A stretch of 64,000 nt of DNA from positions 2,651,189-2,715,188 of the forward strand of contig NZ_HG964497.1 of NCBI RefSeq assembly GCF_000613125.1. Reading direction: 5' to 3'. A model generated the notes under the pieces. That model was not told the DNA's origin. It saw nothing but the letters and a program-made list of their open reading frames with translations, and did not search any database. The position numbers and the translations under genes were made by a program. Positions 61,971 to 64,000 of the stretch are shown here, piece by piece (position 1 is the stretch's first letter; every line of letters starts with the position of its first letter). The stretch comes from Bacillus sp. EB01 (GTDB lineage Bacteria; Bacillota; Bacilli; Bacillales; Cytobacillaceae).

Positions 61971-63134
61971 ATGGATAAATCACAACGAAGTTACTTTGAT
62001 GTCACTTTAGTGTTCATCATATTCCTATTTATGATTATAAGCTGTATTTCTATATACAGTGCACAAAAGTATTCACCCTATGATGTCAACTTTGCACTCA
62101 GGCAGGTTGTCTGGTTTTTTGTAGCAATAGGCTTTTCATCCTTTGTCTACCTGTTTGATTTTGAACAGATTAAGAGGATTTCACCTTATATTTACGGGTT
62201 TGGCGTTTTGCTCCTGCTCGTGCTGTTTCTTGCTCCGGAATCCATTGCTCCAGAGACGAAGGGCGCCAAAGCATGGTTTGAGATTCCTGGCTTTGGATCA
62301 CTGCAGCCTTCCGAATTTATGAAGGTATTTCTGATCATTTTCCTGGCCAGGGTTATTGTGAACCATAATGAAGTCCACTTAAATAGGACGTTGCAAACCG
62401 ACTTTCTTCTGCTTTGTAAAATTGGCCTGACTGCCGCCTTTCCGCTCGGTTTTATCCTTTTACAGCCCGATGCGGGAACTGCTATGGCAATGACTGCAAT
62501 TGTCATAGGGATGACCTTTATTTCGGGGATTAACTGGAGAATTATCGCGACACTTGGATTGATTGCTGCTGCTGTACTCGGAGGGCTTGTGTATATGTAT
62601 ATAACCAACCCGGATTGGTTCCTGAATTTCATGGACCAGTATCAGCTCAACAGGATTCATTCCTGGCTGGAACCATTTGAGGACCGCGGAAATACTTCAT
62701 ACCAGCTGGCAAATTCGATTCTGGCTATCGGCTCCGGGACAATGTACGGCAAAGGCTTTAACTTGGCCCAGGTTAATGTACCAGAAGCTCATTCCGATTT
62801 TATTTTTACGATTATCGGAGAGGAATTTGGATTCTTCGGTGCAAGCATTGTCATATCCTTGTATTTTATGCTGATTTATCGAATTATCGTCATCGCCCTC
62901 CAGAACAAGGGTTATTATGAAAGTCTTATTGCAACTGGCGTCATTTCAGTACTCACTTTTCATATTTTTGAAAATATCGGAATGGTTATCGGACTTGTAC
63001 CAATTACAGGTATCCCACTGCCGCTATTGAGCTACGGCGGAAGTTCTCTTCTTGGAACCATGCTTTCACTGGCGCTTGTCCTGAACATTTCCGCTAAAAC
63101 GAAGAAATACATGTTTGGGGAAAATAGTGACTGA
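61971..63134 (+). CDS. rodA: RodA-like SEDS peptidoglycan polymerase
   Basis: A 387-aa polytopic (about ten TM) SEDS glycosyltransferase. APESIAPETKGAKAWF (about 88-103), QPSEFMKVFLIIFLARV (about 111-127), the MTFISGINWR region and the C-terminal NIGMVIGLVPITGIPLPLLSYGGSSLLGTM (about 338-367) match B. subtilis RodA better than FtsW or SpoVE. It polymerises glycan strands with a class B PBP during elongation. Monocistronic, with a terminator shared with the converging peptide gene. Confidence 0.87.
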   Translation: MDKSQRSYFDVTLVFIIFLFMIISCISIYSAQKYSPYDVNFALRQVVWFFVAIGFSSFVYLFDFEQIKRISPYIYGFGVLLLLVLFLAPESIAPETKGAKAWFEIPGFGSLQPSEFMKVFLIIFLARVIVNHNEVHLNRTLQTDFLLLCKIGLTAAFPLGFILLQPDAGTAMAMTAIVIGMTFISGINWRIIATLGLIAAAVLGGLVYMYITNPDWFLNFMDQYQLNRIHSWLEPFEDRGNTSYQLANSILAIGSGTMYGKGFNLAQVNVPEAHSDFIFTIIGEEFGFFGASIVISLYFMLIYRIIVIALQNKGYYESLIATGVISVLTFHIFENIGMVIGLVPITGIPLPLLSYGGSSLLGTMLSLALVLNISAKTKKYMFGENSD

Positions 63135-63150
63135 TTTTGATTCCATTACA

Positions 63151-63180
63151 AAAGGCGCACTCCTTAATGGATGCGCCTTT
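63151..63180. terminator. Bidirectional terminator between rodA and the peptide gene
   Basis: Perfect AAAGGCGCA / TGCGCCTTT stem, with an A-rich flank before it and TTTCGCTG after it, between convergent genes. Confidence 0.8.
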
Positions 63181-63203: not shown

Positions 63204-63395
63204 TTATAGCGGTGGGTGAATTGGATGCGCAGTCGTATAACTCTCTACAGAAAGCGGTGGGTGGATCGGATGCGCTGCGGCTGTATCCTCGATCGTTAAC
63301 GGCGGGTGAATTGGGTGTGCTGATGCAGGTGCAGCACCTACTGCGAATAAACCAAGGGCAAATGCCGAACTAAGGATGATAATTGCTTTTTTCAT
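63204..63395 (-). CDS. Phr-like secreted peptide precursor with three AHPIHPPL copies
   Basis: A 63-aa precursor: signal peptide MKKAIIILSSAFALGLF..APASA (residues 1-26, AxA cleavage site), then three copies of HPIHPPL preceded by Ala, joined by TIEDTAA- and SVESYTT-type spacers; the last copy is the C-terminus. ATG 63395 follows GAGGAGGAG, which begins at the stop codon of the TPR regulator gene. The architecture is that of Rap-Phr/NprR-NprX/AimR-AimP quorum-sensing cassettes, in which the exported precursor is trimmed and the peptide re-imported to bind the TPR partner. The repeat is not one I know. Confidence 0.82.
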   Translation of the reverse strand: MKKAIIILSSAFALGLFAVGAAPASAHPIHPPLTIEDTAAAHPIHPPLSVESYTTAHPIHPPL

Positions 63396-63406
63396 TGTAC
63401 TCCTCC

Positions 63407-64000
63407 TCAATTAATTTTATTTAAATAAATGACTGCCTGTTCGAACTTGCCCCCCTGGGTGTAATGTTCGGCAAGCAATTTATAGAAATGGGCAAGATCA
63501 TCTTTGTGCTCTTTCCCATCTTCCAACAAAGGAATAACTTTTGCCTGTAAATACTCGTATGCTTTTGGCTCGGAGGAATCCAGCATCAGGTAGAAAGACG
63601 CAAGATTCTTGTATTTTTTACTGCCCAGCTCGTTCGCTAGGGCAAGGACATCCTCGAAGTATGCCTTTGCTACTTCGGTTTCGAATATAGAATGCTTCGT
63701 CTCACCAATGGTATACAGAGTGACAAGGTAATCTATCCCTTTTTCCTTTTTCATGGACAGGCTTTTTTCGAAAAAGTGGATTGCTTGATTTGGCTTTTGC
63801 ATTTTTTTCTGCAAGAAACCCATATTGTGATAAATCATTGGCAGCAATGCCTGCTCGTTCAAAAGCTCAGCATTGCGGATTAAATGCACAAAGCATGACG
63901 ACGCTTCTTCATAAATTTTGGAGTGGGTGTAGTTGATGCCAAGCAGCATTAGTACATGAAGGATTCGCCTGAAATTATGCTGCTCCATAAAATGCTGAAG
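63407..64000 (-). CDS. TPR regulator of Rap/RRNPP type (N-terminus beyond window)
   Basis: The C-terminal 197 residues of a TPR protein; it runs off the right edge. Helical repeats with Rap/NprR-type consensus are visible: LLPMIYHNMGFLQKKMQKPNQAIHFFEKSLSMKKE, then YLVTLYTIGETKHSIFETEVAKAYFEDVLALANEL and a final HFYKLLAEHYTQGGKFEQAVIYLNKIN. Such domains bind short peptides. The N-terminus, which would show HTH (transcription factor) or Rap-type helical bundle (phosphatase), is outside. Its stop codon lies within the peptide gene's ribosome binding region. Confidence 0.85.
   Translation of the reverse strand, partial: LQHFMEQHNFRRILHVLMLLGINYTHSKIYEEASSCFVHLIRNAELLNEQALLPMIYHNMGFLQKKMQKPNQAIHFFEKSLSMKKEKGIDYLVTLYTIGETKHSIFETEVAKAYFEDVLALANELGSKKYKNLASFYLMLDSSEPKAYEYLQAKVIPLLEDGKEHKDDLAHFYKLLAEHYTQGGKFEQAVIYLNKIN

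Follow-up and report, generated by a model that had tools for sequence, protein, structure and literature searches.

NprR-NprX is the described system to which the locus analysed here stands closest, and its receptor and peptide form a tetramer that is believed to hold two sites at once (PMC4970707). Receptors of the NprR type occur in 21 genera according to PMC9765709, and PMC10075063 lists 21 new candidate RRNPP subfamilies. Precursors carrying NprX in repeated form have been reported (PMC5199041, PMC9765709), and repetition of the pheromone, to as many as six copies, is on record for AimR, NprR, PlcR and Rap systems (PMC9765709). The RopB clan has pheromones that lack a leader (PMC10518010). 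Neither the tandem nor the leaderless kind is new. Here we analyse a gene pair at one end of a window of 64,000 nucleotides (the whole stretch of DNA examined, from a soil bacterium), together with its relatives in other genomes. We consider it likely that the pair works by NprR-type peptide quorum sensing, in which the peptide-loaded receptor would activate its own operon and secreted proteases and a peptide array would multiply the signals released per precursor.

A receptor-precursor pair of NprR architecture

The sequence bears out the original prediction of a 63-residue secreted precursor with three repeats behind a TPR gene, secretion being judged by eye (Table 1). The precursor protein, MKKAIIILSSAFALGLFAVGAAPASAHPIHPPLTIEDTAAAHPIHPPLSVESYTTAHPIHPPL, carries HPIHPPL three times with a period of 15 residues. 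It is a tandem pheromone, defined by at least two mature signal copies per precursor, and since it has a leader it is not a leaderless communication peptide. The predicted adjacency of the two genes also holds; their spacing had been given as 12 bp, but the TPR stop at 63407 makes it 11 nt. A gene for a 387-residue membrane protein, FtsW/RodA-like by eye, converges on the precursor gene, and a similar gene occupies the same place in 8/8 genomes of the genus.

Table 1. Features of the locus in window coordinates.
Feature	Position	Strand	Remarks
Window	G000:C1:2651189-2715188		genome of 5.28 Mb, single contig
Receptor gene, 3' part	63407..64000	-	198 codons including stop; HTH + TPR
Complete receptor gene	L004:6596-7816; extends to window-equivalent 64627	-	406 aa
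Receptor-precursor gap	63396..63406	-	11 nt; Shine-Dalgarno-like GGAGGAG inside
Precursor gene	63204..63395	-	63 aa + stop; same gene order in 8/8 genus genomes
Presumed signal peptide	63318..63395	-	26 aa, ASA end; judged by eye
HPIHPPL copy 1	63297..63317	-
HPIHPPL copy 2	63252..63272	-
HPIHPPL copy 3	63207..63227	-	C-terminal
Candidate terminator hairpin AAAGGCGCA...TGCGCCTTT	63151..63180	-	by eye; loop 12; terminator scan made no call
Membrane protein gene	61971..63134	+	387 aa
Divergent secreted-looking protein gene	L004:9467-9712; window-equivalent 66278-66523	+	81 aa

Reading of the flanking sequence placed 627 nt of the receptor gene outside the window, and with them the N terminus, which turned out to be an HTH domain of NprR-like kind and so lies inside the RRNPP families. 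Pfam matched HTH_3 at residues 7-59 of the full receptor, and TPR as well; an NCBIfam search returned no family above cut-off. NprR was the best match both by sequence and by fold, giving the HTH + TPR architecture of NprR-NprX. At 406 residues, and 11 nt from a short gene whose product appears secreted by eye, the receptor fits the RRNPPA description of a TPR receptor of ~250-500 aa beside a short secreted precursor. The prediction of a Rap/RRNPP-type regulator thus survives for the RRNPP-type pair and fails for Rap, because Rap proteins have a three-helix bundle followed by TPRs and lack an HTH, and the N-terminal HTH_3 domain excludes that identity. The NprX contacts named for NprR are mostly replaced: R126, Y165, W167, H201, D309 and R343 correspond to G121, A160, Y162, H195, V302 and a gap, so that only position 201 is identical, and at the position of W167 most relatives have Tyr or Phe. 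The receptor gene looks chromosomal from sequence comparison, since the phage collection held no match at E 1e-5 and the 12 plasmid records matched were all below 60% identity (best 28%); a mobile-element origin was rejected on these grounds.

A family of pairs with a fixed peptide frame

Orthologs of the receptor occur in Neobacillus notoginsengisoli (71% identity) and N. piezotolerans (70%), and in 8/8 genomes of the window's genus the ortholog is followed by a precursor. Wider searches of 193 genomes of the family and 397 drawn from the larger order, with one receptor truncated at a contig end (G153) removed before the motif count, brought the usable receptors to 105, including the distant L129. 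An open reading frame containing PIxPP lies within 420 nt downstream of the receptor in 105/105 of these loci. In the rest of these loci, beyond that 420-nt stretch, PIxPP turns up a single time in 1,017,040 six-frame codons, and its presence behind the receptors is therefore not due to chance. A further search of 43 genomes added one relative (L223, 332 bits), which has no PIxPP downstream and brings the total to 105/106; in another set of 18 genomes, one was already known.

The 105 loci spread over 17 genera in the grouping used in this analysis. Signal residues 2, 3, 5 and 6 are P, I, P and P in 103/103, and the variants include HPIQPPI, DPIYPPV, PPILPPA, HPIWPPV and HPILPPV. Two receptors outside the main clade, L129 and the second receptor of one genome (L130 of G004), are followed by DPIRPPI and DPIQPPT, respectively, which makes the PIxPP code older than the main clade. 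One receptor gene (L125, G079) is broken, through either an assembly error or a real loss, and was removed before the tree was built.

A conserved box at the operon head

An S8 subtilase gene directly precedes the receptor gene in the same orientation in 67/105 loci, including 8/8 in the window's genus, and is missing in 38/105; in many of the remaining g18 loci a gene resembling the CorA of L026 takes its place, and L129 has another S8 as neighbour. At one locus (L128:3565-5199) a divergent M4 thermolysin-type protease gene lies beside the receptor, as nprA lies beside NprR.

The box TTTCCCAA could be tested for in 82 of the 105 loci, the rest having too little upstream DNA. Of the testable loci with a subtilase, 44/44 have it in the 300 nt before that gene, and 31/38 loci without a subtilase have it upstream of the receptor, which places it at the operon head in 75/82. 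Where the subtilase heads the operon, the box was absent from the 110 nt before the receptor (0/44). Reversing the motif gave 1/44 and 0/38 hits, and shuffling it 1.8 and 1.5. The seven loci without subtilase that lack the box (7/38) include all three leaderless species of family f24 described below. Within the genus, 11/11 subtilase genes have the box at -111 to -119, with a second one 45-47 nt further up in five of them. A promoter scan gave 6 matches against 6.4 in shuffles, so that TTGCTA-18-TATACT downstream of the box is a suggestion only. The subtilase shares its box region with the divergent gene for an 81-residue, secreted-looking protein without a Pfam match. Pairs of TTTCCCAA ~96-110 nt apart also occur after paralogous receptor genes (L065-L067, L069-L071, L131), downstream of which our script found no precursor.

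Across the window's genome ATTTTCCCAA has 71 sites, compared with 27 for the reversed control; 37 of the 71 lie inside long ORFs and 34 outside. Two further subtilase genes have a site in front of them, as do the genes for a PIG-L protein, an M14 carboxypeptidase and an LPxTG-like protein, but so do transporter genes and unrelated ones. The M14 gene is a weak candidate target, its site being kept in 1/3 orthologs. Among genomes of the family, the ratio of box hits to control is 1.53 with the receptor and 1.22 without it (P 1.4e-4, uncorrected for kinship).

Box sites are abundant in genus g7 (2.49 times control), which has no receptor at E 1e-30. This would suit a different reading, in which the box may belong to another regulator and the peptide turns the receptor off, the latter either working as a repressor or, in the manner of apo-NprR, serving mainly to inhibit a response regulator such as Spo0F. 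Precedents exist: in Rap and AimR systems the peptide acts as an inhibitor of its receptor (PMC11343458), and apo-NprR inhibits sporulation via Spo0F (PMC4970707). Against it stand the constancy of the box at the operon head, its shift to the receptor when the subtilase is absent, and the activation by NprR-NprX of the adjoining protease gene nprA (PMC4970707). We regard such a switch-off as a serious but minority possibility, and activation as the better reading.

Selection on the repeated copies

The original prediction took AHPIHPPL as the repeated unit. The three copies stand, but the eighth residue does not belong to them: Ala precedes all three here, G, S, D or E precede many copies in relatives, and the co-variation with the receptor described below begins at residue 1, so that the unit is the heptapeptide HPIHPPL. 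As predicted, the copies encode identical residues with different codons. With the preceding Ala these are GCA CAC CCA ATT CAC CCG CCG TTA in copy 1, GCG CAT CCG ATC CAC CCA CCG CTT in copy 2 and GCG CAT CCA ATT CAC CCA CCG CTA in copy 3. Among 26 copies in eight precursors the differences comprise at least 44 synonymous changes (a minimum count) and no amino-acid change, where random changes would be 25-31% synonymous. It follows that selection maintains the identity of the copies, in agreement with the purifying selection originally proposed.

All eight genomes of the genus, which forms one clade in the receptor tree (support 1.0), have arrays: HPIHPPL in three, three, two and two copies, HPIYPPL in three, and TPIYPPL in five, three and five. 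Outside the genus the signal is single in 97/97 loci and arrays are absent (0/97), so that conservation of the repeats is confined to the genus. The layout of three copies at 15 residues is common to the window's species, its nearest relative G005 and the more distant G007. Each copy and both spacers have their nearest counterpart at the same position in G005; compared with G007, spacer 1 matches by position (2 versus 5 residue differences) and spacer 2 barely so (6 versus 7). The suggestion that recent duplication is less likely therefore holds for the window's species, and does not extend to the genus at large, where arrays must grow and shrink because copy number varies among 2, 3 and 5. 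Two of these species have His at residue 4 in every one of their three copies, and the third has Tyr in every one; from this we conclude that the signal changed in all copies together, whether through conversion between them or through selected changes in parallel.

An array might alternatively have no function in dose, having arisen by neutral slippage and expansion with one copy that matters. The range of two to five copies within one genus would be expected on this account, as would the sufficiency of one copy in 97/97 other loci. Unused copies should decay, however, whereas the 26 copies remain identical in amino acids within their precursors despite the synonymous changes, and species that differ at residue 4 do so in each of the three copies. 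We think a neutral array rather unlikely, and that the array raises the signal dose per precursor is plausible.

Repackaging of the signal

Most precursors of genus g14 hardly extend beyond leader and signal, their length of about 24-35 aa varying with the start chosen, and the shortest precursor with a leader has 23 aa (L128). Six loci lack a hydrophobic leader by eye (L062, L063, L064, L113, L124 and L107); their mini-ORFs of 11-22 aa lie directly 3' of the receptor and fall in three places in the tree. They comprise 3/3 species of family f24 (MNMKAPILPPVT, MKKAPILPPVT and MKRKAPILPPIV), two g17 loci (MNKTIQTAMVPIQPPI and MTQFFQTVVSRSASLGPIWPPI) and one g14 locus (MEKRRASNPPIQPPV). Each of the f24 ORFs follows a Shine-Dalgarno-like AAGGGGGAG or AAGGAGGA, ~25 nt or less from the receptor stop. 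Such a leaderless peptide, acting inside the producer cell, may turn quorum sensing into self-sensing. At one further locus (L090, G162) leader and PIQPPV lie in separate frames, which could be an assembly error or a real loss.

Receptor and signal co-vary

The known NprR contacts were set aside as specificity sites since most are replaced, and for that reason we scanned the variable receptor columns (379) without bias. On a tree of 103 receptors, with L129 and paralogs removed, we set the changes at each signal residue against those at every variable column, using parsimony with random tie-breaking and a null in which changes were placed in proportion to each branch's amount of change; runs of 20,000 and 5,000 simulations were made. 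Signal residue 1 co-changed with receptor Y339 (7.0 co-changes, 1.1 expected) and residue 7 with M157 (10.5, 2.0 expected), both with family-wise values of 0.000 in both runs. Residue 4 co-changed with S194 (9.3, 3.0 expected), with a family-wise value of 0.053 in 20,000 simulations and 0.004 in 5,000. The 17 control positions, namely residue 8, five pre-signal residues and eleven leader residues, gave no value below 0.05, the lowest being 0.084.

By eye in a structure model, sites 339, 194 and 157 each lie on the first helix of a TPR pair, and in the model they are C-terminal, middle and N-terminal in that order. Column 194 follows a logic of size, Gly occurring with Tyr, Trp or Phe in 12/13 cases and Thr with Leu in 20/21. 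Next to it, receptor position 195 ranks second of the 379 columns in a simpler test and aligns to NprR H201, an NprX contact (PMC4970707). Since residues 1, 4 and 7 co-change with the receptor and the controls do not, the sequence data point to the heptapeptide as the receptor's ligand, and no other computed result argues for this as strongly. That the His-rich repeats of a secreted product are a metal-binding or antimicrobial peptide rather than a signal is very improbable, as the His gives way to T, D, P, Y, Q, L, W and other residues in relatives, and co-change with the receptor is confined to residues 1, 4 and 7, being absent from flanking and leader positions.

Proposed mechanism

Our model builds on what was computed, namely the gene pairing, the family-wide xPIxPPx, the selection on the copies, the co-variation of receptor and peptide and the conserved box. 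From these we infer a cytoplasmic HTH + TPR receptor that would act as a transcription regulator. The precursor would be exported by Sec, and signal-peptidase cleavage after ASA would directly free the N terminus of copy 1; proteases would then cleave the spacers, so that each precursor could yield HPIHPPL three times. The neighbouring subtilase may assist in this cutting, because the spacers need cleavage while the proline-rich heptapeptide should resist it. Extracellular proteases of B. subtilis are described as maturing Phr peptides (PMC11343458). The peptide would re-enter the cell, presumably via an oligopeptide permease, and is predicted to bind in the TPR groove, its first residue facing the C-terminal TPRs. 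Once loaded, the receptor most likely binds TTTCCCAA at the operon head, and this would activate the operon of subtilase, receptor and precursor together with some further secreted proteases; more subtilase, receptor and precursor would close a positive loop. This receptor-precursor family probably controls secreted proteases.

Comparison with known systems

Searches of the literature by peptide strings did not find an xPIxPPx signal family, although the supplementary lists of PMC10075063 and PMC9765709 may include members; because those reports already hold NprR types and 21 candidate subfamilies, the branch may sit in such a list. We therefore propose only tentatively that the pairs might form a distinct, apparently undescribed NprR-like branch in 17 genera, with a signal x-P-I-x-P-P-x whose three free letters would be read by three receptor positions and which has been repackaged repeatedly, as single copy, leader plus signal, array and leaderless form. 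The family offers more than 100 natural pheromone-receptor pairs in which the peptide frame is constant and three specificity contacts are predicted. It makes testable how a multi-copy pheromone can alter its code in every copy simultaneously, and what advantage lies in passing from a single copy to an array or a leaderless form, and it predicts density-controlled secreted proteases in soil Bacillaceae.

Like NprR-NprX of the Bacillus cereus group, the pair has an HTH + TPR receptor, a precursor directly downstream and a secreted protease gene nearby. It differs in its signal, which is xPIxPPx here and SSKPDIVG in the NprX of PMC4970707, in the replacement of most named NprX contacts, and in a protease neighbour that is usually a subtilase. 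With the Rap3T/Rap105 Rap-Phr systems it shares a TPR receptor and a precursor with a repeated pheromone (PMC11343458), but Rap has no HTH and the window receptor has one. The six related leaderless loci resemble the RopB clan in placing a pheromone without a leader beside the receptor; that clan, as described in PMC10518010, has Rgg/RopB receptors and other peptides, whereas the receptors here are NprR-like and mostly paired with precursors that have a leader.
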